Of a DNA stretch of 64,000 nt, positions 29,887 to 46,755 are shown piece after piece. The stretch's first letter is position 1. Every line of letters begins with the position of its first letter. The position numbers and the translations under genes are program-made. The stretch is from Pseudomethylobacillus aquaticus (GTDB lineage: Bacteria > Pseudomonadota > Gammaproteobacteria > Burkholderiales > Methylophilaceae), in the NCBI RefSeq assembly GCF_003730115.1, contig NZ_RJVP01000003.1, positions 248,001 through 312,000 of the forward strand. Reading direction: 5' to 3'. The notes under the pieces are model-generated. The model worked only from the letters and a program-made list of their open reading frames with translations. It was not told where the DNA came from and did no database searches.

Positions 29887-31479
29887 ATGGCAGTCATCAA
29901 ACGTGCACTCATCAGTGTCTCTGACAAAACCGGCATCATCGAGCTGGCGCAAGCCCTCAACGCACTGGGTGTGGAGATCCTTTCTACCGGCGGTACCGCC
30001 AAGCTGTTTCGCGAGCAGCAGATACCCGTCATCGAAGTCAGTGATTACACCGGCTTCCCGGAGATGCTGGACGGCCGCGTGAAGACGCTGCACCCCAAGG
30101 TGCACGGCGGCCTGCTGGGACGCCGCGAGTTGCCCGAACATGTTGCCGCCATGCAGCAGGCCGGCATCCCCAATATTGACCTGCTGGTGGTGAACCTGTA
30201 TCCGTTCGAGGCCACTGTCGCCAAGGCGGATTGCACGCTGGAACAAGCCATCGAGAACATCGACATCGGCGGCCCGGCCATGGTGCGCTCTGCCGCCAAG
30301 AACTGGCGTGACGTGGCGGTGCTGACCGATGCGTCACAGTATGCCGAGTTCATCACTGAGCTGAAGAGCACCAGCGGTGCCACCAGCCAGGCCACACGTT
30401 TCGCACTGTCGGTGGCCGCGTTCAACCGCATCAGCAACTACGATGCCGCCATCAGCGATTATCTTTCCTCCTACAAGCCGGACGGCAGCCGTGCCGATTT
30501 CCCCGGCCAGACCAACGGCCGCTTTGTCAAACTGCAAGACCTGCGCTACGGCGAGAACCCGCACCAGCAGGCCGCGTTCTACCGCGACCTGCATCCGGCA
30601 CCTGGCTCGCTGGTGTCGGCCCAGCAACTGCAGGGCAAGGAACTCAGCTACAACAACATCGCCGACGCCGATGCGGCCTGGGAAGCGGTGAAGAGTTTTG
30701 ACAGCGCGGGCACCGCCTGTGTCATCGTCAAACATGCCAACCCCTGTGGCGTTGCACTGGGCAGCAGCCCGCTGGAGGCTTACAGCAAGGCCTTCCAGAC
30801 CGACCCGACCTCGGCCTTTGGCGGCATCATCGCCTTCAACCGCACGCTGGATGCAGCGGCGGCTGAAGCCGTTTCCAGGCAATTCGTGGAAGTGCTGATC
30901 GCGCCGGACTACACGCCGGAAGCGCTGGCCATCTTCAAAGCCAAAGCCAATGTGCGCGTGCTCAAGATCGCGTTGCCACCCGGTGGCGATACGCCCTGGG
31001 CACAGGGCCGCAACTCGCATGACATCAAGCGCGTGGGTTCCGGCATCCTGATCCAGACCGCAGACAACCACGAGATCAGCGTCACCGACCTGAAGATCGT
31101 CAGCCAGAAGCAGCCCACACCGCAGCAACTGGAAGATTTGCTGTTCGCCTGGCGTGTGGCCAAATATGTGAAATCCAACGCCATCGTGTTCTGCGGCAAC
31201 GGCATGACGCTGGGCGTGGGTGCAGGCCAGATGAGCCGCGTCGACAGTACGCGTATCGCCGCCATCAAGGCCCAGAATGCCAACCTCAGCCTGCAGGGCT
31301 CGGTGGTGGCTTCGGATGCGTTCTTCCCGTTCCGTGATGGCATCGACGTACTGGCGGAAGCCGGTGCGGCGGCAGTGATCCATCCGGGTGGCAGCATGCG
31401 TGATGAAGAAGTCATCAACGCCGCCAACGAACGCGGCCTGGTCATGGTGCTGACCGGCATCCGTCACTTCAGACACTAA
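29887..31479 (+). CDS. purH: AICAR transformylase/IMP cyclohydrolase
   Basis: A 530-residue bifunctional enzyme for the last two steps of IMP synthesis. The IMP cyclohydrolase domain is N-terminal ([38 protein letters not shown]). The transformylase domain follows ([42 protein letters not shown]). Length is typical. purD follows about 100 bp later. Confidence 0.96.
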
Positions 31480-31581
31480 ATTACATGGAGGGTGAAGGGT
31501 AAAGGGCGCAGGGTTCATGTGCGACACATTGATCCAGACCCGATCTCCCCTTCCCTCTTCTCTACTTCAGGGAAGTACATT

Positions 31582-32850
31582 ATGAAAGTTTTAGTCATTG
31601 GTGGCGGTGGTCGCGAACATGCGCTGGCATGGAAACTGAAACACAGCCCACGCGTGAGCCGCGTGTTCGTCGCGCCCGGCAATGCCGGCACCGCGCTGGA
31701 TCCTGACATGAAGAACGTGCCGATCAGCACAGTGGATGAACTGCTGCAGTTCGCACTCGACGAGCAGATCGGCATCACCGTGGTCGGCCCGGAAGCGCCG
31801 CTATCGCAAGGCGTGGTCGATGCCTTCCGCGCCGCCGGTCTCAAGATCTTTGGCCCGACCAAGGCTGCTGCGCAGCTGGAATCATCCAAGGACTTCGCCA
31901 AAGCGTTCATGGTGCGTCATGGCATCCCCACCGCCGCCTACGCCACCTTCACCGATGCCGCTGCCGCGCATGACTACGTCCATCAGCAAGGCGCGCCCAT
32001 CGTCATCAAGGCCGACGGCCTGGCCGCGGGCAAAGGTGTAGTGGTGGCCATGTCGCTGGACGAAGCGCATGCTGCCATCGACGCCATGCTGGCCGACAAC
32101 AAGCTGGGCAGTGCAGGCGCACGCGTGGTGATCGAAGAATTCCTCAGCGGCGAAGAAGCCAGCTTCATCGTCATGGTGGACGGCAAGAACATCCTCGCGC
32201 TGGCCACCAGCCAGGACCACAAACGCTTGCTGGACGGCGACCAGGGCCCCAACACCGGCGGTATGGGGGCTTATTCCCCGGCACCCGTGGTCACGCCCGA
32301 GATCCATGCACGCGTGATCCGCGAGATCATCCGCCCCACCGTGGAAGGCATGGCCAAAGACGGCATCCCCTATACCGGTTTCCTTTACGCGGGCCTGATG
32401 ATCAGCCCGGACGGCAAACTGAAGACGCTGGAATTCAACTGCCGCATGGGCGACCCGGAGACGCAGCCCATCATGCTGCGCCTGAAGAGCGACCTGCTCA
32501 ACCTGGTGGAGCATGCGGTGGATGGCAAGCTCAACGCCGTGGACGTGGACTGGGACCGCCGTACCGCGCTGGGTGTGGTGATGGCCGCCGCCAATTACCC
32601 CGATACGCCACGCAACGGTGACGTGATCACCGGCCTGCCCAAAGAGCTCGTTGACGCCCATGTGTTCCATGCCGGTACCAGCATGCACGATGGTCAGGTA
32701 CTCACCAGCGGCGGTCGCGTACTGTGTGTGACGGCGCTGGGTGAAACCGTCAAATACGCGCAAAGCCGCGCTTACCAGATCGCCGACGAGATCCAGTTCG
32801 ACGGCAGCCAGTATCGCCGCGACATCGGCTACCGCGCCGTCAAAGGCTGA
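31582..32850 (+). CDS. purD: phosphoribosylamine-glycine ligase
   Basis: A 422-residue ATP-grasp enzyme (GAR synthetase) adding glycine to phosphoribosylamine. It starts MKVLVIGGGGREHALAWKL, has AVDGP-type VVGPEAPLSQGVVD and the ATP-grasp blocks KADGLAAGKGV and EFNCRMGDPETQ. ATG 31582 follows an AGGGAAG ribosome site; the open frame upstream to 31492 is spurious. It lies 102 bp after purH and 11 bp before tsaC. Confidence 0.96.
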   Translation: MKVLVIGGGGREHALAWKLKHSPRVSRVFVAPGNAGTALDPDMKNVPISTVDELLQFALDEQIGITVVGPEAPLSQGVVDAFRAAGLKIFGPTKAAAQLESSKDFAKAFMVRHGIPTAAYATFTDAAAAHDYVHQQGAPIVIKADGLAAGKGVVVAMSLDEAHAAIDAMLADNKLGSAGARVVIEEFLSGEEASFIVMVDGKNILALATSQDHKRLLDGDQGPNTGGMGAYSPAPVVTPEIHARVIREIIRPTVEGMAKDGIPYTGFLYAGLMISPDGKLKTLEFNCRMGDPETQPIMLRLKSDLLNLVEHAVDGKLNAVDVDWDRRTALGVVMAAANYPDTPRNGDVITGLPKELVDAHVFHAGTSMHDGQVLTSGGRVLCVTALGETVKYAQSRAYQIADEIQFDGSQYRRDIGYRAVKG

Positions 32851-32861
32851 GGTTCAGGGCC

Positions 32862-33404
32862 ATGCTGGACCGCGCCCTCCATCATTATCTGCGCGCTGGC
32901 GGCGTCATCGCCTATGCCACGGAATCCTGTTTCGGGCTGGGTTGTGACCCACGCAGCCGCCTGGGCGTGCAACGCATCCTCAGGCTGAAAGGCAGGCCGC
33001 AGCACAAAGGCCTGATCCTGATCGCCAGCAAGGTCACGCAGCTACGTCATTACATGGCACCGCTCAGCGCGGATGAATACCAGCAACTCGGCGCAAAGCG
33101 CCCGCGCCCGCATACCTGGCTGGTACCCACTGCCACACACTGCCCGGTATGGCTCAGCGGCCGACACCCCAGCATCGCCGTACGCATCACCGCCTTCCCG
33201 CCCGCACGTCAGCTGTGCCAGGCCAGCAATATGGCGCTGGTCTCCACCAGCGCCAACCGTAGCGGCCATGCGCCCGCCAAGACCACGCGACTGTGCAAGC
33301 AACTGTTCGGTGACCGTGTGCGCGTGATCGCCGGGCTTACCGCAGGCAACAAACGCCCCTCCACCATTCAGGACCTGCGCAGCGGACGCATACTGCGCGC
33401 CTGA
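32862..33404 (+). CDS. tsaC: threonylcarbamoyl-AMP synthase, YrdC type
   Basis: A 180-residue YrdC/Sua5-domain protein making threonylcarbamoyl-AMP for the t6A37 modification of tRNA. Visible are the substrate-binding [27 protein letters not shown] and [12 protein letters not shown]. The size matches single-domain TsaC rather than the longer Sua5. It lies between purD (11 bp) and hemF (19 bp) and is probably in one operon with them. Confidence 0.88.
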
Positions 33405-33423
33405 ACTCCTTTGGATCGAGACC

Positions 33424-34506
33424 ATGAGCGACATCTCCACACAACGCGTCTACGACTACCTGCAACAGCTGCAAGCCCGCATCGTCGAGGCGCTGGAACT
33501 GGTGGACGGCAAACGCTTCCTCAACGACAGCTGGCAACGCCCGGAAGGCGGCGGTGGCACCAGCTGCCTGCTGGAAGAAGGCAATGTGTTCGAACGCGCT
33601 GGCGTGGGCTTTTCACATGTCAAAGGCAGCAAACTGCCACCTGCTGCGACGGTAGCCCACCCGGAAGCCGCCGGCCGCAGCTGGGAAGCCATGGGTGTGT
33701 CGCTGGTGCTGCATCCGCGCAATCCCTATGCGCCCACCGTGCACATGAATATCCGCTTCTTCGTTGCGAAAGCACCGGACCCGGAGATAGCCGCCATGGA
33801 TTTACGTGCAAAACAAGCTGAGCATAAAAGCGAACAATCGGCAAAGTATCAGGGTGCGAGCCAAGGCGCTGACGGCGCGGCGACGCGACATACCTCGTCA
33901 GGTAGGCAAGGAGCCGCGTCGGAGAGCAACGCAGGCGCAGCCCCTGAGACACAGCCGATTTGGTGGTTTGGCGGCGGCATGGACCTCACCCCCTACTACG
34001 GCTTTGAAGAAGACGCCGTGCACTTCCACCGTTGCTGCCGCGATGCACTGGATCCGTTCAACGCGGACTATTACCCCAAGTTCAAGACCGCCTGCGACAA
34101 GTACTTCTTCCTCAAGCATCGTCAGGAACCGCGCGGCATCGGCGGCATCTTCTTTGATGACTTCAGCGAGCTGGGCTTCGAACAGAGCTTCGCCCTGCAG
34201 CGCAATGTGGGCGATGCCTTCCTGCAGGCCTACCTGCCCATCCTGCAGCGGCGCAAGGACACGGCTTATGGCGAGCGCGAGCGCGATTTCCAGGCCTACC
34301 GCCGTGGCCGTTATGTGGAATTCAACCTGGTGTTCGACCGTGGCACGCTGTTCGGTCTGCAATCCAATGGCCGCACTGAATCCATCCTGATGTCCATGCC
34401 GCCTGTAGTGAAATGGCGTTATGACTGGAAACCGGCGGCAGGCAGCCCCGAGGCGGCGCTATACAGTGACTTTTTGACCGAGCGCGACTGGTTGCAAACA
34501 CGCTGA
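33424..34506 (+). CDS. hemF: oxygen-dependent coproporphyrinogen III oxidase with insertion
   Basis: A 360-residue enzyme that decarboxylates coproporphyrinogen III to protoporphyrinogen IX in heme synthesis. The family is about 300 residues. The core is intact: [69 protein letters not shown]. Residues about 119-177 are a low-complexity, charged insertion (A, G, S, Q-rich) between MNIRFFVA and IWWFGGG, where relatives have a short loop. It is in frame, so a working enzyme is likely, but this should be confirmed. It ends the dusB-fis-purH-purD-tsaC-hemF run. Confidence 0.92.
33778..33954. repeat. palindromic in-frame insertion inside hemF
   Basis: The inserted segment encodes hemF residues about 119-177 and contains a nested inverted repeat. 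CGACGCG (33881-33887) pairs with CGCGTCG (33915-33921), and inside it TACCT (33891-33895) pairs with AGGTA (33900-33904). Its length keeps the frame. I found no second copy in this window, so mobility is a hypothesis. Confidence 0.55.
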
Positions 34507-34594
34507 CCAACTGCCTAGCTAGTTTGAATGCGCAGGCTGCTTAGTTTTCTGGCACGTTTGGTGCATACTCCATTAAAAAAATCAGGGAGATCTC

Positions 34595-35998
34595 ATGTTT
34601 GCTCAGCTGTTGCGTACCAAACCGGCAGACCCGCATGGCCATAGTGGTCTCAAAAAATGCCTGAGCGCATTTGATCTTGCCCTGCTCGGTATCGGCTGCG
34701 CCATCGGCACCGGGATCTTCGTACTGACCGGCATCGCGGCAGCCACCCAATCCGGCCCGGCCGTGGTGTTGTCGTTCGTATTCGCCGGCGTAGCCTCCGG
34801 CTTTGCGGCACTGGCCTATGCAGAACTGGCGGCCTCAGTGGGCGGCTCGGGCAGTGCTTACGGTTACAGCTATGTGGCGTTCGGGGAGTTCATCGCCTGG
34901 GTGATGGGCTGGATCCTGCTGTTGGAATATGGCGTAGGTGCGGCCGCAGTGGCCAATGGCTGGGCCGGTTACTTCATCAATACGCTGGCCAATTTCAATA
35001 TCGTGCTGCCCGAAGCGCTGATCAAAGCACCAAGTCAGGGCGGCATCATCAACCTGCCCGCCTTCGGCATCATCTGGGTGCTGACCTTGTTACTCATCAG
35101 CGGCGTCAAGCAAAGCTCGCAGTTCAATAACATCATCGTTGCCGTCAAACTCAGCACCATCGTCATTTTCATCGCGCTCGCCTCCATGCACCTCAACACC
35201 GACAACTGGACACCGTTCATGCCGTTCGGCTGGTTCGACACACTGGATAACGGCAAGACCATAGGCGTGCTGGCAGGCGCATCGCTGGTGTTCTTTGCCT
35301 ACTTTGGCTTTGACGCGGTATCCACCGCCGCCGATGAAGCCAAAAACCCGCAGCGTGACCTGCCTATCGGCCTGCTTGCCTCGCTGGTGTTCTGCACCGT
35401 GGTGTATATCCTGGTGTCGGGGGTGCTGACTGGCGTGGTGCCATACGGTGAATTGAACGTGTCCTCCCCGGTGGCGTATGCCTTGAGCAAACTGGGGTAC
35501 ACCTGGTCCTCCACGCTGGTCGCTACCGGCGTGCTGGCGGGCCTGATCACGGTGCTGCTGGTGCTGCTGTACGGCCTGACCCGCATCCTGTTCGCGATGA
35601 GCCGCGATGGCCTGATCTCACCGTTCTTCTCCACCATCAACCCGGACCGTCAGACGCCGGTGCGCATCATCCTGCTGTGCGGGATAGTGGTGTCGCTGGT
35701 GGCCGGTTTCATTCCGCTTGGGCAACTGGCCGAGACTGTCAATATCGGCACGCTGGCCAGTTTCGTCATGGTGTGTGTGGGCGTGATCGTGCTGCGCATT
35801 CGCCAGCCCGACTTGCCGCGTCCATTCAAAAACCCCTGGAATCCCTTGGTCCCGGTGCTGGGCATCCTGTCCTGCGGCGCCTTGATGGCCTTCCTGCCCA
35901 CCGAGACCTGGCACCGTTTCGGCTGGTGGGTGGCGGCTGGCGTTGTGTTCTATTTCAGCTATTCCATACGCCACAGCAAGCTGCGCAAGGCGGCATAA
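34595..35998 (+). CDS. APC superfamily amino-acid permease (CAT-like)
   Basis: A 467-residue membrane transporter with about 12 helices. The opening LALLGIGCAIGTGIFVLTG is the APC substrate-binding loop. The GFAALAYAELAASVGGSGSAYGY block and later FDAVSTAADEAKNPQRDLP match the cationic amino acid transporter/YfnA-like subgroup. The exact substrate is not clear. It stands alone after hemF and ends at a strong terminator shared with the convergent cytochrome gene. Confidence 0.88.
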   Translation: MFAQLLRTKPADPHGHSGLKKCLSAFDLALLGIGCAIGTGIFVLTGIAAATQSGPAVVLSFVFAGVASGFAALAYAELAASVGGSGSAYGYSYVAFGEFIAWVMGWILLLEYGVGAAAVANGWAGYFINTLANFNIVLPEALIKAPSQGGIINLPAFGIIWVLTLLLISGVKQSSQFNNIIVAVKLSTIVIFIALASMHLNTDNWTPFMPFGWFDTLDNGKTIGVLAGASLVFFAYFGFDAVSTAADEAKNPQRDLPIGLLASLVFCTVVYILVSGVLTGVVPYGELNVSSPVAYALSKLGYTWSSTLVATGVLAGLITVLLVLLYGLTRILFAMSRDGLISPFFSTINPDRQTPVRIILLCGIVVSLVAGFIPLGQLAETVNIGTLASFVMVCVGVIVLRIRQPDLPRPFKNPWNPLVPVLGILSCGALMAFLPTETWHRFGWWVAAGVVFYFSYSIRHSKLRKAA

Positions 35999-36015
35999 GC
36001 CGAATTTCGGGCAAC

Positions 36016-36048
36016 AAAAAAGCCAGTCTTTTGGACTGGCTTTTTTTT
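36016..36048. terminator. bidirectional rho-independent terminator
   Basis: AGCCAGTC and GACTGGCT pair around TTTTG, with A and T tracts on either side. It separates the convergent permease and cytochrome c genes. Confidence 0.93.
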
Positions 36049-36062
36049 GCACCGTTGCTAGA

Positions 36063-36389
36063 TTACAGGGTAAGAATCCACTGCACGATGGTTTTGATAT
36101 CAGCATCTTTGACCTGGGGGCTGTGAGGTGGCATCGGGATAGGACCCCAAACGCCACTGCCACCCTTTTTGACTTTTTCGATCAGCTTGGCTTCCGCTGT
36201 CTTGTCACCCTTGTACTTGGCAGCCACGTCCTTGTATGCAGGACCAACTACTTTGTTGGCAATGGTGTGACAGGCCAGACAGCCACTTTTCTGTGCCAGG
36301 GCTTCAGCGGCCTTGGCGTCTACTGCGCTTGCCTGTCCGGCCAGCATCAGAGAGCCAGCGGCGGCAACCGTCATTAATAACGCTTTCAT
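36063..36389 (-). CDS. periplasmic class I cytochrome c (c551-like)
   Basis: A 108-residue exported cytochrome. The signal peptide covers about 1-22. The heme site is C37-L-A-C40-H41, and M86 in GPIPMPPHS is the likely sixth ligand. It matches the small cytochrome c551/c552 group that carries electrons to terminal oxidases or nitrite reductase. A GAAGGAGAT ribosome site precedes the ATG. The electron partner is not indicated by neighbours. Confidence 0.9.
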   Translation of the reverse strand: MKALLMTVAAAGSLMLAGQASAVDAKAAEALAQKSGCLACHTIANKVVGPAYKDVAAKYKGDKTAEAKLIEKVKKGGSGVWGPIPMPPHSPQVKDADIKTIVQWILTL

Positions 36390-36706
36390 GCTATCTCCTT
36401 CAACTCGATCTTTATCGGACTACTGATTACTTCAAGCTTTACAGCTCTATCATGATACCCAAGATAGACTAAGCTTGAAAAGAATTACGCTATCGCAGCA
36501 TGCTGTCAGGTACTTCGGGAACCAATCGTTGCTCTGCTTTGGTTAAACGCTCCAAGCCGGTATGGGTTGACAGTAACAACGCACAACAGGGCCAGTAACT
36601 TGCTATCGGCAGGCGAAGTGGAATCTTGAGAATGCGATGATCAGTCTAGTCATGCACTCAAGCGCATGTTGGCCTTCCCTGACCTGTCCGGCCAGGGAAG
36701 ACTGCG
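36390..36706. other. non-coding region between cytochrome c and mutarotase genes
   Basis: No gene is visible. A stem-loop (CTTCCCTG / CAGGGAAG, 36674-36700, 11-nt loop) lies just after the mutarotase stop but lacks a T tract. The cytochrome c promoter should be at the left end. Confidence 0.55.
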
Positions 36707-37642
36707 TCACATAGACTCGACGGTATATTCTGCACTCATGATATGGGTGCGATTCGGGTTGATCACCACCATGTTCTCCATGGCGTTGGCTGATTCGATA
36801 CAGATCATATTGCGCCATTCATCTGCGCTGCCCATGTCACCCGTACTATGGGCTTTTTCTTCCCATGGCGTCCAGATCACGGTGCTACGGCTGTTGGAGG
36901 TGGAGACGCGGATACGGCGCTTGTAACCCGGGTCGGACAGCAGGCAGTCGCCACTATGGTTCAAATAGACACGATCGAACTCGCCATCAAAGGTCAGCAC
37001 TTCATGCTCGACATAACGCTGGTAGTTCTTGAGCTTGTCGGCATAGACATAATCCTGCAGACCCGTGATCTTGACATTGGCCACATCGCTGATGTTGAAG
37101 TAGGTGTGGAATGCCTCACCGATGATGAAAGGATGATCCGCCTTGTTGGTGGTGGCCAGATCGATCTTCAGGCGCTTGCCTACGGTGATGGTCATGGTCA
37201 GCACATAGGGATAACCCAACTGACGGCGCGTCACATCGGTTTCCTGCATCTGCAACAACAGACGTGTCGCGCCAGTGTCGGTGGTGTCCGAATCGACCAG
37301 CTGCCAGGGAATGACGCGGGCGAAACCATGCGGACACAAGGTGCTATCGGTCTGGTGCGCACCGAACCAGGGCCAGCAGATCGGCACGCCGCCACGAATG
37401 GAACGGCCTTTCACATAGCGCGCATGTTCGGACAACCACAACACCGGCTGTTTCTCGGTCTTGGGTTGCCAATGGATGACATGGCCACCCTGCAAGGCGA
37501 TCCTGGCCTTGGCCAGCGGGTTGTCGATCTCGATATAGCGCAGCCCATTCCCGTCTTCAGTCAACTGGATATGCGGATGGGCCAGGCTGGTGCCCGTCCC
37601 ATCACTGTTGTAGAAACTGTTTGCGAGCGTTTGAGTGCTCAT
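36707..37642 (-). CDS. D-hexose-6-phosphate mutarotase (YeaD-like)
   Basis: A 311-residue aldose-1-epimerase-fold enzyme that interconverts anomers of glucose-6-phosphate and similar sugars. The fold is marked by GGHVIHWQP, RGGVPICWPWFGAH, PHGFAR with the catalytic histidine, GEAFHTYFNISDV with another active-site residue, and FDRVYLN. It lies 43 bp after ilvD on the same strand, an unexpected pairing. Confidence 0.88.
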   Translation of the reverse strand: MSTQTLANSFYNSDGTGTSLAHPHIQLTEDGNGLRYIEIDNPLAKARIALQGGHVIHWQPKTEKQPVLWLSEHARYVKGRSIRGGVPICWPWFGAHQTDSTLCPHGFARVIPWQLVDSDTTDTGATRLLLQMQETDVTRRQLGYPYVLTMTITVGKRLKIDLATTNKADHPFIIGEAFHTYFNISDVANVKITGLQDYVYADKLKNYQRYVEHEVLTFDGEFDRVYLNHSGDCLLSDPGYKRRIRVSTSNSRSTVIWTPWEEKAHSTGDMGSADEWRNMICIESANAMENMVVINPNRTHIMSAEYTVESM

Positions 37643-37685
37643 TCATTTACCCCGGTTATCTTGGTCGTGCTTGAAAGAATTCTTG

Positions 37686-39536
37686 TTATTTTTCGATTTG
37701 CGCAACATCGCGCACTGCGCCACGGGCTGCGGAAGTGCTCATCGCCGCATAGGCACGCAAGGCGGGTGAAACCACGCGCTGACGGGATACCGGCTTCCAG
37801 GCCAGGGCTCCCTTGGCCACCATGTGGGCACGTCGATGCGACAACACTTCATCACTGACCGCGAGATGGATGGTGCGGTTCGGAATATCGATCTCGATGG
37901 TGTCGCCTTCTTCCACCAGACCGATGGCACCCCCCTCTGCAGCCTCTGGGGAAGCATGGCCTATACTCAGACCGGAGGTGCCCCCGGAGAAGCGTCCATC
38001 TGTAAGCAAAGCACAAACCTTGCCCAGGCCCTTGGATTTCAAGTAACTGGTGGGATACAGCATCTCCTGCATGCCAGGACCGCCACGCGGGCCTTCGTAG
38101 CGGATCACTACCACGTCACCCGCTATCACGTTATCGGCAAGAATCGCGGCCACTGCATCGTCCTGTGATTCAAAGATGCGCGCACGGCCGGTGAACTTGA
38201 GGATGCTGTCATCCACCCCCGCCGTTTTGACAATGCACCCATCCTGTGCGATGTTGCCGTACAGCACCGCCAGACCGCCATCCTGCGAGTAGGCATGGGC
38301 CTTGTCGCGGATGCAGCCCTCAGCACGGTCTGTGTCCAGATCGGGCCACAACATGGACTGACTGAAAGCGATGGTGGTCGGGATGCCGCCGGGCGCCGCG
38401 CGGAACAGCTGGCGCGCCTCTTCATTAGCCAGGTTGCTGATATCCCATTGCTGCAGTGCATCGCCCAGGGTCGGGCTATGGACGGTGGGGATCTCGTTAT
38501 GGATCAGGCCGGCTTTATTCAACTCGCCCAGGATGGCCATCACGCCACCCGCACGATGCACGTCTTCCATGTGGTATTTCTGTGTGGCAGGCGCCACCTT
38601 GCACACGCAGGGCACACGGCGCGAGATGCGGTCGATGTCGCTCATGGTGAAATCGACACCCGCTTCATGCGCAGCCGCCAGCAAATGCAGCACGGTATTG
38701 GTGGAGCCGCCCATGGCCACATCCAGGCTCATGGCATTCTCGAATGCCTGCATATTGGCGATGGCGCGTGGCAGCACGCTGTAATCGTCCTGCTCGTAAT
38801 GCCGCCTGGCCAGCTCGACGATGAGGCGACCTGCTTTCAGGAACAACTGCTTGCGCGCCGCATGCGTGGCCAGCGTGGAGCCGTTACCGGGCAGGGACAA
38901 GCCCAGCGCCTCGGTCAGGCAGTTCATGGAATTGGCCGTGAACATGCCGGAGCAGGAACCACAGGTGGGGCATGCAGAACGCTCGACTGCCGCTACATCG
39001 GCATCGCTGACATGGCTGTCCGCCGCTTCAACCATGGCATCCACCAGATCCAGCTTGCGAATCGTGCCATTCCAGTTGACCTTGCCGGCCTCCATCGGGC
39101 CACCCGAAACGAACACCACCGGGATATTGAGACGCAGCGCTGCCATCAGCATGCCGGGCGTGATCTTGTCACAGTTGGAGATGCACACCAGCGCATCGGC
39201 ACAGTGCGCATTGACCATGTATTCGACGCTGTCCGCGATCAAGTCACGGCTGGGCAGCGAATACAGCATGCCACTGTGGCCCATGGCGATGCCGTCATCC
39301 ACGGCGATGGTGTTGAACTCTTTGGCGACGCCACCCGCCTTTTCGATCTCGCGTGCGACCAGCTGGCCCATATCTTTCAGGTGCACATGGCCAGGCACGA
39401 ACTGGGTGAAGGAGTTGGCAATCGCGATGATGGGCTTGGTGAAATCCTCATCCTTCATGCCGGTGGCACGCCATAAAGCGCGTGCACCCGCCATGTTGCG
39501 GCCGTGTGTGGTGGTACGTGAACGATAAACCGGCAT
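37686..39536 (-). CDS. ilvD: dihydroxy-acid dehydratase
   Basis: A 616-residue Fe-S dehydratase in isoleucine, valine and pantothenate synthesis. Cysteine ligands lie in [10 protein letters not shown] and [19 protein letters not shown], with the first conserved cysteine in [11 protein letters not shown]. It begins [19 protein letters not shown]. Length equals E. coli IlvD. It is divergent from lgt, with about 150 bp between starts. Confidence 0.95.
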
Positions 39537-43267: not shown

Positions 43268-43455
43268 GGTTAAGAACCCAGGGTGGATAACATGGTGTGC
43301 ACTAGACGAGAAATGATCAAACCGCAGTATAAAGCACTGCCAGCCGCTTGGAACGCTGATGCGACACGCAGGCGCCACAGAAAGCGAATCCGCCGTGTAA
43401 GGTTGCCTGCTGCTGCACGACCAAACAGCATCGATAACTTGATATGGGATCCCTG

Positions 43456-43836
43456 ATGAAAACGCTATTTCGCACCCTGATTCTGATTTGCATGATGCTG
43501 GCCGGCAGCGCTTATGCCAATCCTGGCCATTACGAAGCGAGCAGGTTCGAAAGTCTGCAGAATGCTGGTACACCTACTTTGCTGCACGTGCATGCCGACT
43601 GGTGCTCGACTTGCCGCACGCAGGCCCCCATTCTGGGCAGCCTGCTCAAAATGCCTGAATACAGCGGCATCCAGGCACTGCAAGTCAGTTTTGATGACCA
43701 GAAAGACGTACTCAAACAATTCAATGTACGCCGCCAGAGCACATTGATCGTGTTCAAGAACGGCAAGGAAGTCGGGCGCAGCACTGGTGATACCAGCCGC
43801 CTGAGCATAGAGCGCCTGCTGCAACAGGCGCTGTGA
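43456..43836 (+). CDS. exported thioredoxin-family protein
   Basis: A 126-residue protein with a signal peptide (1 to about 20, ending SAYA) and a thioredoxin fold. The redox site is ADWCSTC (C50, C53), followed by TLIVFKNGKEVGRSTG. ATG 43456 is chosen; ATG 43444 would add four residues. The stop overlaps the CcdA-like gene's start by one base, so this periplasmic thioredoxin is probably kept reduced by that membrane protein, like a split DsbD. Confidence 0.87.
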   Translation: MKTLFRTLILICMMLAGSAYANPGHYEASRFESLQNAGTPTLLHVHADWCSTCRTQAPILGSLLKMPEYSGIQALQVSFDDQKDVLKQFNVRRQSTLIVFKNGKEVGRSTGDTSRLSIERLLQQAL

Positions 43837-44564
43837 TGTCAGCCGAGCTGGCCAGCTATGGCCTGAGTTTTCTGGCTGGTACCTTATCCGTGCTGGCCCC
43901 CTGCGTGCTGCCCCTGCTGCCTATCCTGCTGGGCAGCGCACTCAACACACACAAGCTGGGGCCACTCGCCCTGGCGGCCGGGCTGGCCATCACGTTCACT
44001 GTGATCGGCGTGCTGATCGCCAGTAGCGGCGCCGTGCTTGGGCTGGAGCAAGACACCTTGCGCCGCTTTGCGGCCGTATTGCTGATCTTGTTCGGCGTGG
44101 TGCTGTTATCCAGCCATCTGCAGCATTACTTTTCCAGACTGACTGCAGGCCTGGGTAACAGCGGAAATAACTTACTGTACCGCTTGTCTGGCGATACGCT
44201 GGCTGGCCAGTTCCTGCTGGGGTGTGTGCTGGGCCTGGTGTGGAGCCCGTGTGTAGGCCCCACGCTGGGTGCTGCCATTACGCTGGCCAGTCAGGGCGAA
44301 AGTCTGCTGCATGTGACGCTGGTGATGGCCATGTTCGGCATGGGCGCTGGCTTGCCCTTGATCGCACTGGGCCTGCTGTCACGCCAGGCCATGCTACGCT
44401 TGCGCGGCAAGCTCATGCAGGCAGGAAAGGTAGGCAAACAAGTGATGGGCATCGCCCTGCTGGTAGTTGGTCTGCTCATCCTGACCGGTTTTGACAAAAG
44501 CATTGAGTCCGGCCTGCTGGATATTTTGCCCACTTGGATGACGGAAATCACCACGCGTTTTTAG
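43836..44564 (+). CDS. CcdA/DsbD-type membrane thiol-disulfide transporter
   Basis: A 242-residue membrane protein with about six helices. Two conserved cysteine-proline motifs (APCVLP, C23; SPCVGP, C139) mark the DsbD-beta/CcdA family, which passes electrons from cytoplasmic thioredoxin to the periplasm. It starts at ATG 43836, overlapping the stop of the periplasmic thioredoxin gene. The pair may serve cytochrome c maturation or other periplasmic thiols. Confidence 0.88.
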   Translation: MSAELASYGLSFLAGTLSVLAPCVLPLLPILLGSALNTHKLGPLALAAGLAITFTVIGVLIASSGAVLGLEQDTLRRFAAVLLILFGVVLLSSHLQHYFSRLTAGLGNSGNNLLYRLSGDTLAGQFLLGCVLGLVWSPCVGPTLGAAITLASQGESLLHVTLVMAMFGMGAGLPLIALGLLSRQAMLRLRGKLMQAGKVGKQVMGIALLVVGLLILTGFDKSIESGLLDILPTWMTEITTRF

Positions 44565-44829
44565 TCTGCCACCCCCATCTCGTTGTTCTTGCACAACTTT
44601 AAAATTAGCGGTTTTTCACACTATTTGGCCGCACATCAATTGCCCCCAAACGATGGATTGACGCCACTTCCGGGCCGGTTGTAGCATCTGCGGCACTGTT
44701 CTGGTGCTGACTGCTTGACCTCACGTTTGGGAGGGGGTCGTCATGTGTTTTTCATGAGCCAATCAACATCCGACAGTGCTAGTAAAAGGCAGTAAAGATA
44801 TTTTATCTTTCAACATTAAAAGGAACATC

Positions 44830-45414
44830 ATGAAAACGATTCTTTCAGCACTGGTACTTGGCACTCTGAGCTTCAACGTCGCTGCAGCGGAACTGCCTGT
44901 AGACCTGCCTCTGGGCGCGGTCACCGGCGTGGTTGAGGGTGTACTGGGTACGGTTGCCCTGCCCGGCCTGCCTGTAGACCTGCCACTGGATACCGTCACT
45001 GGTCTGGTTGGCGGTCTGGTTCCTACCGTGATCGGTCTGCTGGATGGCGTATTGGGTGGTGTTGCACTGCCTGGTGCTCCTGCAGTGCCCGGCCTGCCAG
45101 CACTGCCAGTTGATCTGCCACTGGGCGCTGTGACCGATCTGGTGGGTGGCCTGGTGCCTACCGTCACTGACGTGGTCGGCGGCTTGCTGCCCACCGTGAC
45201 CGGTCTGGTTGACGGCCTGGTGCCTACTGTGACCGGCCTGCTGGATGGCGTATTGGGTGGTGTTGCACTGCCTGGCGCGCCTGCTGTGCCTGGCCTGCCA
45301 GCACTGCCAGTTGATCTGCCACTGGGCGCTGTGACTGATCTGGTCGGCGGCCTGGTGCCTACCGTGACCGGTCTGGTTGACGGTGTACTGGGTGGCGTTG
45401 CACTGCCACTGTAA
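44830..45414 (+). CDS. secreted repeat protein with a nine-residue alphabet
   Basis: A 194-residue exported protein with a clear signal peptide (1-20, ending NVAAA). I count only nine amino-acid types in the mature part: A, D, E, G, I, L, P, T and V. There are no Lys, Arg, His, Cys, Met, aromatic, Ser, Asn or Gln residues, and 14 acidic residues with no basic ones. Four LPVDLPL headers each lead into units such as GLVxGLVPTVT, then GVLGGVALP(G), with the linker APAVPGLPA after two modules. I know no family for it. An AAGGA ribosome site precedes the ATG and a strong terminator follows. The DNA repeats differ by synonymous changes only, so the protein seems selected. Confidence 0.75.
   Translation: MKTILSALVLGTLSFNVAAAELPVDLPLGAVTGVVEGVLGTVALPGLPVDLPLDTVTGLVGGLVPTVIGLLDGVLGGVALPGAPAVPGLPALPVDLPLGAVTDLVGGLVPTVTDVVGGLLPTVTGLVDGLVPTVTGLLDGVLGGVALPGAPAVPGLPALPVDLPLGAVTDLVGGLVPTVTGLVDGVLGGVALPL
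45040..45366 (+). repeat. long internal direct repeat of the nine-residue protein gene
   Basis: A stretch of about 126 bp at 45040-45165 recurs at 45241-45366, 201 bp later (67 codons). All eight or so differences are synonymous. The phase is preserved, so the repeat encodes identical protein. Confidence 0.85.
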
Positions 45415-45438
45415 GCTGCGCATTCAAGGTTCTAAATG

Positions 45439-45468
45439 AAAACGCCCCATTGCGGGGCGTTTTTTATT
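45439..45468 (+). terminator. rho-independent terminator
   Basis: AAAACGCCCC / GGGGCGTTTT with a 5-nt loop and a T tract, 25 bp after the repeat protein's stop. Confidence 0.92.
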
Positions 45469-45552
45469 TGACGCCAGGCTGAGTCTTGAGCCCCTGCGAT
45501 TTGAGTCAGATTTGGCGTCAGTTTTATTGGGCAATGTCGCTGGCGTGCCAGC

Positions 45553-46692
45553 TTAACCGATCCCCAGCTCCGAACGCGCGATCAGCGCCTGATTGTGCGC
45601 ACTGTCCCGGTCAGCGGCCAGCGTGGTGAAATGCCCCATCTTGCGCCCCGGTCTGGCTTCATGTTTGCCGTACAGATGCAATTTCAGCGCCGTGTGTGCT
45701 GTGGCTTTGGACCAGGCGGGCTCGCCGTCCTGCCAGATGTCACCCAGAATGTTCACCATCACGGCGGCACTATGCTGACGTGCGTCACCCAGAGGCAATC
45801 CGGTCAAGGCACGCACCTGTTGTTCGAACTGATTGGTCACGCAGGCATCGATGGTGTAATGGCCGGAGTTATGGGGGCGAGGTGCCATTTCGTTGACCAG
45901 CAGCTTGCCTTCACTGATAAAGAACTCCACCGCCAGCACGCCTTCATAAGCCAGCTTTTGCGCCAACTGCGTCGCCAAGGCTTGTGCCTTGGCTTTGAGC
46001 ACGTCACTGATGCGGGCAGGGGCGATGCTGACATCGAGGATACCGTTGAGGTGACTGTTCTCCACCACCGGAAAAGTGACGATATGGCCATCAGCATCAC
46101 GCGCCAGCACCACGGATACTTCGGCATCCAGGCTGAGCATGTTTTCCAGCACGCAGGTCTGCATGCCGAACTGTTCGAACGCCGCAGCGGCAGCGGCAGC
46201 ATCGGCAACCCGGGCTTGCCCCTTGCCGTCGTAACCGAAGCGCGCCACCTTGAGGATGGCCGGATACAAGCCGCTGTCGTCCGCAGGCAGGTCTTGCGCA
46301 GTATTGATCACGGCGAACGGCGCGACCGGCAAGCCTGCATCGCGTACGAACTGCTTCTCCAGTACGCGGTGCTGGGCAATCGCCACTGCGCTGGCCGATG
46401 GGCGCACGGTGCGGGTCTGGGCCAGGAAGTCCAGCGTCGCCGCAGGCACATTCTCGAATTCGGTCGTGATCGCGGCACAGGTCTCGGCCATGCTGGCCAG
46501 CGCCGCCGCATCGTCATAAGCGCTGCACAGATGCACATCGGCAATGCGGCCGGCCGGACTATTGGCATCCGGGTCCAGCACGGTCACCTTGTAGCCTAGC
46601 TCATGCGCAGCGATGACAAAATAGCGGCCCAGTTGACCGCCACCCAGCATGCCCAACATCGCGGGCGGAAGAATCATCGGCTTGCTCAACAT
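45553..46692 (-). CDS. purK: N5-carboxyaminoimidazole ribonucleotide synthase
   Basis: A 379-residue ATP-grasp enzyme making N5-CAIR from AIR, bicarbonate and ATP. It begins MLGGGQLGRYFVIAAHELGY after a short lead and contains ITTEFENVPA, RFGYDGKGQARV, EFFISEGKLLVNEMAPRPHNSGH and GDIWQDGEPAW. ATG 46692 is chosen for a GGAG just upstream, though spacing is short; ATG 46704 is an alternative. It follows purE by about 60 bp and probably shares its operon, giving the two-step bacterial route. Confidence 0.95.
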   Translation of the reverse strand: MLSKPMILPPAMLGMLGGGQLGRYFVIAAHELGYKVTVLDPDANSPAGRIADVHLCSAYDDAAALASMAETCAAITTEFENVPAATLDFLAQTRTVRPSASAVAIAQHRVLEKQFVRDAGLPVAPFAVINTAQDLPADDSGLYPAILKVARFGYDGKGQARVADAAAAAAAFEQFGMQTCVLENMLSLDAEVSVVLARDADGHIVTFPVVENSHLNGILDVSIAPARISDVLKAKAQALATQLAQKLAYEGVLAVEFFISEGKLLVNEMAPRPHNSGHYTIDACVTNQFEQQVRALTGLPLGDARQHSAAVMVNILGDIWQDGEPAWSKATAHTALKLHLYGKHEARPGRKMGHFTTLAADRDSAHNQALIARSELGIG

Positions 46693-46755
46693 ATCTCCAT
46701 TCAAATCAGGCGATGTTCAGAAAGAATCGCTAACGCGTCTACAAATGGCCAGCAC

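Follow-up and report, generated by a model that had tools for sequence, protein, structure and literature searches.

A repeat protein of nine residue types with an amphipathic 11-residue unit in Pseudomethylobacillus aquaticus

Introduction

A stretch of 64,000 nucleotides of Pseudomethylobacillus aquaticus (contig NZ_RJVP01000003.1, positions 248,001 to 312,000 of the forward strand; this whole stretch is referred to as the window) contains an open reading frame whose product, P0001, reads as a secreted repeat protein composed of very few types of amino acids. The locus raises the question whether this frame is a gene, what its repeats consist of, and what kind of protein such a sequence could form. 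A preliminary description, made from the sequence of the window, had characterized the product by its composition and by a 201-bp repeat. We followed up this description by comparison with related genomes, by analysis of the periodicity of the repeats and by searches for related proteins and families.

Results

P0001 is encoded by a single gene under purifying selection

P0001 is a real gene under purifying selection, as it has a ribosome-binding site, a terminator and an ortholog with a dN/dS of about 0.05 (Table 1). The frame is open over 194 codons plus stop, and the expectation that a related genome would contain an ortholog was borne out: P0002 of Methylobacillus flagellatus L1B (G001) is located between the same neighbours as P0001 and its frame is open. 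Of the nucleotide differences between the two coding sequences, 26 are synonymous and 3 are nonsynonymous (dS 0.148, dN 0.0077, omega 0.05). Counted by codons, 25 changes are synonymous and 3 nonsynonymous, and the nucleotide differences are distributed 5/1/23 over the three codon positions. The sole coding indel between the two species is one 11-codon unit, with the best-placed gap after codon 168, in block 4 (Table 1). Between the species, 2 of the 75 nucleotides 5' of the ATG differ; over the entire upstream gap, which contains these 75, the count is 21 of 265. The ortholog keeps the terminator hairpin, apart from an additional A on its 5' side. The fold of the terminator region (45415-45480) has an energy of -23.9 kcal/mol (z -2.59), and 1 of 200 shuffles was as good; a simple terminator scan around P0001 listed none. 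A single, weak promoter-like match (9/12) was found for the gene, and an Rfam scan of 43400-46700 gave no match. An antisense ORF of 192 amino acids (44845-45423, -) covers the repeat, and a similar ORF of 218 amino acids is open in the ortholog; these antisense ORFs probably arise as a side effect of the codons used for the repeat.

P0001 stands alone as a gene. The ORFs upstream encode thioredoxin-like and DsbD-like proteins, and a link of P0001 with this pair was dropped because of the 265-nt gap that precedes P0001. Downstream, purK (45553-46704, -) is convergent. Ten more ORFs within 34595-56755 are mostly metabolic or housekeeping, one of them without a match, and no secretion, assembly or anchor gene was recognised beside P0001 among the 13 neighbouring ORFs scanned.

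Table 1. Features of the P0001 gene and of related loci. Positions are those of the window unless another sequence is named. Segregation counts refer to a fixed angle of 98.18 degrees per residue; as the four blocks repeat one another, the shuffles are to be read accordingly.
Feature	Coordinates	Strand	Basis or remark
P0001 gene, 194 aa + stop	44830..45414	+	open frame, ortholog codon comparison
AAGGA Shine-Dalgarno-like sequence, 5 nt 5' of ATG	44820..44824	+	direct reading
Sec-type signal peptide MKTILSALVLGTLSFNVAAA	44830..44889	+	read by eye: K2, hydrophobic core, AAA then E
Header 1 LPVDLPL, residues 22-28	44893..44913	+	sequence
Amphipathic block 1, residues 28-42	44911..44955	+	15/15 segregate; reached by 25/20000 shuffles
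Header 2 LPVDLPL, residues 47-53	44968..44988	+	sequence; LPLDLPL in ortholog
Amphipathic block 2, residues 53-78	44986..45063	+	25/26 segregate; 0/20000 shuffles
45-codon block, first copy	45034..45168	+	repeated 201 bp on
Header 3 LPVDLPL, residues 92-98	45103..45123	+	sequence
Amphipathic block 3, residues 98-145, four tandem 11-mers	45121..45264	+	48/48 segregate; 0/20000 shuffles
45-codon block, second copy	45235..45369	+	10 synonymous, 0 nonsynonymous vs first copy
Header 4 LPVDLPL, residues 159-165	45304..45324	+	sequence
Amphipathic block 4, residues 165-190	45322..45399	+	26/26 segregate; 0/20000 shuffles
Rho-independent terminator hairpin, then U-rich tract	45438..45464	+	fold of 45415-45480
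P0003, 245 aa, repeat protein	G000:C8:36095-36829		between P0007 and P0004, same strand
Row of P0005, P0006, P0007, a glycosyltransferase, P0003 and P0004	L007 6312-14618 (G000:C8, about 30311-38617)		
P0007, 580 aa	L007 10125-11867		collagen-triplet and GGDLLGG/LLAPVTGLLGG repeats, lipobox by eye
G210 short ORFs	L066 1504-1728; L069 1486-1731	-	double-glycine-type leaders by eye

The mature chain is composed of nine residue types

With the cleavage site placed by eye at VAAA^E, the mature chain of P0001 is 174 amino acids long and has the composition L38 V36 G34 P23 T15 A13 D12 E2 I1, without any K, R, H, C, F, W, Y, M, N, Q or S. Together G, A, V, I and L make up 122 of the 174 residues and Gly plus Pro make up 57. 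The computed pI is 4.05, the mass 16.25 kDa, the extinction at 280 nm zero and the GRAVY value +1.23. No Cys is present in the whole 194-residue protein, and hence no lipobox Cys. These counts agree with the preliminary description, which had given a secreted repeat protein whose mature chain, after removal of a signal peptide, has 174 residues of nine types, 14 of them acidic, and lacks K, R, aromatics and Cys. Its prediction that trypsin-based proteomics and absorbance at 280 nm would miss the protein also stands, as the mature chain contains no trypsin site.

The repeat unit is 11 residues long

The four LPVDLPL headers reported earlier are found at residues 22, 47, 92 and 159. The accompanying statement that copies 201 bp apart differ only by synonymous changes holds for a core block of 45 codons, in which residues 69-113 and 136-180 (an offset of 67 codons) are encoded with 10 nucleotide differences, all of them synonymous; in the offset copies outside this block the amino acids differ. 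When 10 changes were placed at random, they caused 6.4 amino-acid changes on average, and none of the 5000 trials was free of such changes. The 201-bp copies alone cannot show selection, because copies within one gene can be homogenised, and the conclusion drawn from them, that the protein sequence is selected, is carried instead by the comparison with the ortholog.

A smaller repeat unit of 11 residues, VTxLVxGLVPT, had been overlooked. In our refined description the structural unit of P0001 is this 11-residue amphipathic hendecad, rather than the LPVDLPL or 201-bp period. In the core of the protein (residues 101-144) the successive units are VTDLVGGLVPT, VTDVVGGLLPT, VTGLVDGLVPT and VTGLLDGVLGG. 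Although their residues vary, all four have the polarity pattern hpphhpphhpp, with hydrophobic residues at positions 1, 4, 5, 8 and 9. Pro-rich linkers (ALPGAPAVPGLPALPVDLPL and shorter forms) separate the four blocks listed in Table 1.

The blocks are amphipathic at the angle of an 11/3 helix

Segregation of hydrophobic residues was counted at a fixed angle of 98.18 degrees, a residue being scored as correct when it was L, V or I and lay within 80 degrees of one direction, or was any other residue and lay outside. The ends of the blocks were taken from the second AlphaFold model described below, and the linkers were left out of the count. The sole misfit in block 2 is I68, which is Thr in the ortholog; I68 excepted, the opposite face of the predicted helices would consist of Gly, Thr, Ala, Pro and Asp/Glu. 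Of 11 angles tried, 98.18 degrees was the best, with 48, 25, 26 and 15 correct residues in blocks 3, 2, 4 and 1, compared to 26, 19, 18 and 13 at 90 degrees and 26, 14, 14 and 11 at 110 degrees. The hydrophobic periodicity of P0001 peaks at 97-98 degrees with a value of 0.96, the maximum among 300 shuffles being 0.65, and the periodicity of the core was reached in 0 of 1000 shuffles and in 0 of 1000 shuffles of the unit. P0001 has the 11-residue period with a hydrophobic face at 98.18 degrees per residue that is expected of a hendecad. Within the four core units 44 of 44 residues segregate, and the column-consistent control gave 11/462. If the repeats are counted as one event, the chance of a perfect 11/3 pattern is this 11/462, or about 2.4%, which is much weaker evidence than the shuffle figures and counts against the helical reading considered in the Discussion.

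AlphaFold2 models were of low confidence, with a mean pLDDT of 41.7 when three sequences were used and of 52.0 when two mature sequences were used. In both models the four blocks are helical and the Pro-rich linkers are coil, an agreement that is partly by construction, the block ends having come from the second model. In water, helices form poorly from Gly, Val, Thr and Pro, and this counts against helix, as does the recurrence of Pro three times within the long block 3.

Positions 1, 4, 5, 8 and 9 of the 11-mer cover what we take to be the a, d, e and h core of hendecad coiled coils. Tetrabrachion contains a right-handed hendecad coiled coil, and P0001 resembles hendecads of this type in its 11-residue period and its hydrophobic core positions. 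It differs from them in that the opposite face is rich in Gly, Thr and Pro and has no basic residues, and in the Pro-rich linkers between the blocks.

P0001 has a limited distribution among the genomes searched

A match to P0001 was found in both genomes of the genus that were searched and in 2 of 61 relatives, own genome included. For the order and the phylum the query was a profile with three rows (P0001, P0002 and P0003, see below), in which P0003 matches arise by construction, and in each genome no more than six candidates from a first look were scored. This profile matched in 3 of 399 genomes of the order and in 1 of 398 genomes of the phylum sample, the latter being the own genome. No ortholog was found outside the genus among the sampled genomes, and this absence means 'not found' only, because low-complexity queries search poorly. 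A purK match was present in 31 genomes, and on the 3' side of purK in the four others that were read (G012, G014, G002 and G010) no P0001-like ORF was seen among ORFs of at least 60 amino acids. The ORF at this position in G012 and G002 is presumably that of ribosomal protein S20, in contrast to the P0001/DsbD-like arrangement of the window; the arrangement in G014 and G010 differs again.

None of the curated families in Pfam, NCBIfam and PHROGs fits P0001, no solved structure matched at E 10, and word searches of the open-access literature found no published work on P0001 or its repeats. Matches below cut-off to Wza_C (0.019) and holin_4 (0.18) for P0001 and to Wza_C (0.0023) for P0002 were read as composition, as was a PHROGs tape-measure family match to P0001 (nominal 2e-4), which we did not credit. 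The earlier statement that no family like it was known is accurate for curated families and structures; it has to be qualified by the weakly similar paralog P0003, by lipoproteins of the same genome whose basic-free stretches are longer, and by two peptides of another family with nearly the same 11-mer (see below).

P0003 and repeat lipoproteins of the same genome

The repeat protein P0003 resembles P0001 in being secreted-looking, in its LPALP and TVTGLV motifs and in the end of its leader (LSF...N.AAAE). The Smith-Waterman score of the pair is 183, compared to 95.6 for shuffles (sd 13.3; 0/300) and 134 for the reversed sequence, and pairwise BLASTP gave an E value of 5e-6, the genome search only 0.012. 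From these scores paralogy of P0001 and P0003 is plausible. Unlike P0001, P0003 has a 20-residue repeat, contains K, N, S and F, and is encoded in an operon-like arrangement together with P0004, an outer-membrane protein of the ShlB/FhaC type (Pfam POTRA_2 5e-16, ShlB 3e-13). It is without the 11/3 pattern, its best angle of those tried being 108 degrees, and this counts against the helical coat reading of P0001. P0003 occurs in 2 of 150 family genomes, the same two as P0001; P0004 has matches in 63 of the 150, most of them distant.

The repeat lipoproteins P0005 and P0006 (lipobox by eye) and two glycosyltransferases are also encoded near P0003. The longest run without K, R, H, C, F, W, Y and M is 543 residues in P0007, 366 in P0005, 157 in P0006 and 97 in P0003. 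The odd composition of P0001 is therefore not unique in the genome, but takes to an extreme what some of its other repeat proteins also show; with the lipoproteins P0005-P0007 it shares the basic-poor composition. Homology of P0001 and P0007 was rejected, as the score of 169 (167 reversed) reflects composition only. The collagen-like proteins (CLPs) of the Burkholderia cepacia complex (PMC10224339) have a repeat-driven low-complexity sequence as P0001 does. P0001 differs from collagen-like and surface lipoproteins in the missing lipobox Cys and in having no Pfam Collagen match at E 10, a family that P0007 matches at 1.3e-10.

Cargo of two-partner secretion (TpsA) is marked by an N-terminal TPS (haemagglutination activity) domain and an adjacent TpsB gene. 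Pfam gave no match to this domain in P0001 at E values up to 10, nor in P0002 and P0003 at E values up to 0.1, and a TpsB gene is adjacent to P0003 and not to P0001. The neighbours of P0004 gave no TPS-domain match. At five of six loci with a P0004 homolog that were read in other genomes of the family (L014, L018, L019, L020 and L021) a repeat ORF of the LLAPVTGLL/LPLTS type lies directly upstream; at the sixth (L016), which has the opposite orientation, P0007 matches are found just upstream too. P0004-type loci could possibly represent a conserved, non-canonical system of a TpsB protein plus a repeat protein.

Short ORFs with a similar 11-mer in another family

The only profile matches outside the genus among the 399 genomes of the order were two short ORFs in G210, a genome of another family. 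They (MAILELNKQEIEVVSGG... and MAIQELNKQEIAVVSGG...) contain 11-mers of the GTVTGLVGGIL type and lie near ORFs that by eye are HlyD-like and TolC-like. When one of the two was used to search the order, matches came from 5 of 250 genomes, and the best match outside G210 was P0001. P0001 scored 142 and 135 against the two peptides and 111 and 104 against the reversed sequences (P0008: 142 vs 111). To judge from these scores, convergence on a good 11-mer would be as likely as shared ancestry. The G210 ORFs matched Pfam Bacteriocin_IIc and the NCBIfam cerein-type models below cut-off only, and are candidate Cdz-like or class II bacteriocin peptides.

Discussion

We propose, with a probability of about 0.42, that P0001 is an exported amphipathic-helix protein which assembles with itself or at an interface and serves as an envelope or matrix coat. 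The Sec signal peptide would carry P0001 across the inner membrane and then be removed, releasing a mature chain of four blocks (15, 26, 48 and 26 residues) that are wholly or partly based on the 11-residue unit and are joined by stiff Pro-rich linkers. Each block may fold as an 11/3 helix that has Leu and Val along one unbroken face, and these faces could be buried where the helices pack into bundles or fibres or settle on a hydrophobic surface, which would leave a small, smooth, acidic exterior exposed. P0001 would in this way act as a coat protein of the envelope or matrix in the Methylobacillus lineage, the copy number of its repeats being free to drift. The selection on the gene and its conserved terminator, the periodicity and segregation at the 11/3 angle, the polarity pattern common to the four core units, the indel of one 11-mer between the species, the helix that both models place (in part by construction) on the blocks and the presence of other exported-looking repeat proteins of similar composition in the same genome count for this reading. 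The low AlphaFold confidence and the isolated position of the gene count against it. The wider proposal that P0001 is a natural exported fold of nine residue types, made of 11/3 helices and Pro-rich hinges, and that it represents a new charge-poor class of self-assembling or surface-active proteins with a hendecad that also occurs in bacteriocin-like peptides and so far with a single methylotroph lineage as its source, is in our view doubtful.

An unlikely alternative is that P0001 is a low-complexity protein of the cell surface, mostly disordered or polyproline-like. It would then be related to the repeat lipoproteins as a short form that is free, and selection would act on its composition and not on a helix. 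The basic-poor G/L/V/P/T/D composition that P0005, P0006 and P0007 share, the low AlphaFold confidence and the large content of Gly plus Pro fit this alternative. The patterning of polarity at 98.18 degrees speaks against it, as does the GRAVY value of P0001, which is unlike that of ordinary disordered proteins. The nearly equal forward and reversed scores of P0007 argue against kinship with the lipoproteins, and not against a shared composition.

P0001 could instead be a membrane-active glycine-zipper protein similar to Cdz or class IIb bacteriocins, whose helices would insert in or aggregate on target membranes and harm neighbouring cells. CdzC/CdzD of the Cdz-like group and class IIb bacteriocins are, like P0001, exported, rich in Gly and aliphatic residues (G, A, V, I and L in P0001) and provided with GxxxGxxxG motifs, of which P0001 has four, and the G210 ORFs combine leaders that by eye are of the double-glycine type with nearly the same 11-mer and return P0001 in the reverse search. 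Cdz-like proteins have a leader ending in GG, GA or GS, a length of 60-151 amino acids, a zipper uninterrupted by proline or a charged residue, and genes for type I secretion no more than about 10 kb away (PMC5380434). The leader of P0001 is of the Sec type and ends in VAAA^E (by eye), the protein is longer with its 194 residues (174 mature), and each of its four motifs contains D or E. No ABC exporter, HlyD or TolC family gene was found among the 13 ORFs scanned near P0001, and no immunity gene was recognised by eye near it. In the four blocks the glycines lie on the polar face together with the acids, much of the similarity to P0008 is due to composition, and P0001, unlike Cdz-like proteins, is encoded by a lone gene that keeps the same place in two species. 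We regard this explanation as quite improbable.

Less probable again is that P0001 is an accessory or cargo of P0004, which would export both P0003 and P0001. The position of P0003 between P0007 and P0004 on the same strand, its alignment score with P0001 and the shared leader end are in line with such a role. Against it, P0001 is unlinked to P0004 and has no TPS domain match, and P0004 has matches, mostly distant, in 63/150 and P0003 in 2/150 family genomes and P0001 in 2/61 relatives. That the locus is not a gene but a GC-rich repeat with a chance frame, or that the antisense strand is coding, is highly improbable: in each of the two species the repeat is covered by long antisense ORFs, and a stop-free antisense frame has 22 synonymous and 6 nonsynonymous codon changes, but the sense frame does better (25 vs 3), and ribosome-binding site, signal peptide and terminator are in the right order and kept in the ortholog.

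If the helical reading of P0001 is true, it would be a natural protein of nine residue types without basic residues, which bears on the minimal alphabet for folding, and it would be useful for the design of self-assembling or surface-active proteins. Mature chains without K, R and aromatics evade tryptic proteomics and detection at 280 nm, which leaves a blind spot, and surface proteomes may under-count genes like that of P0001, along with the basic-free stretch of 543 residues in P0007.
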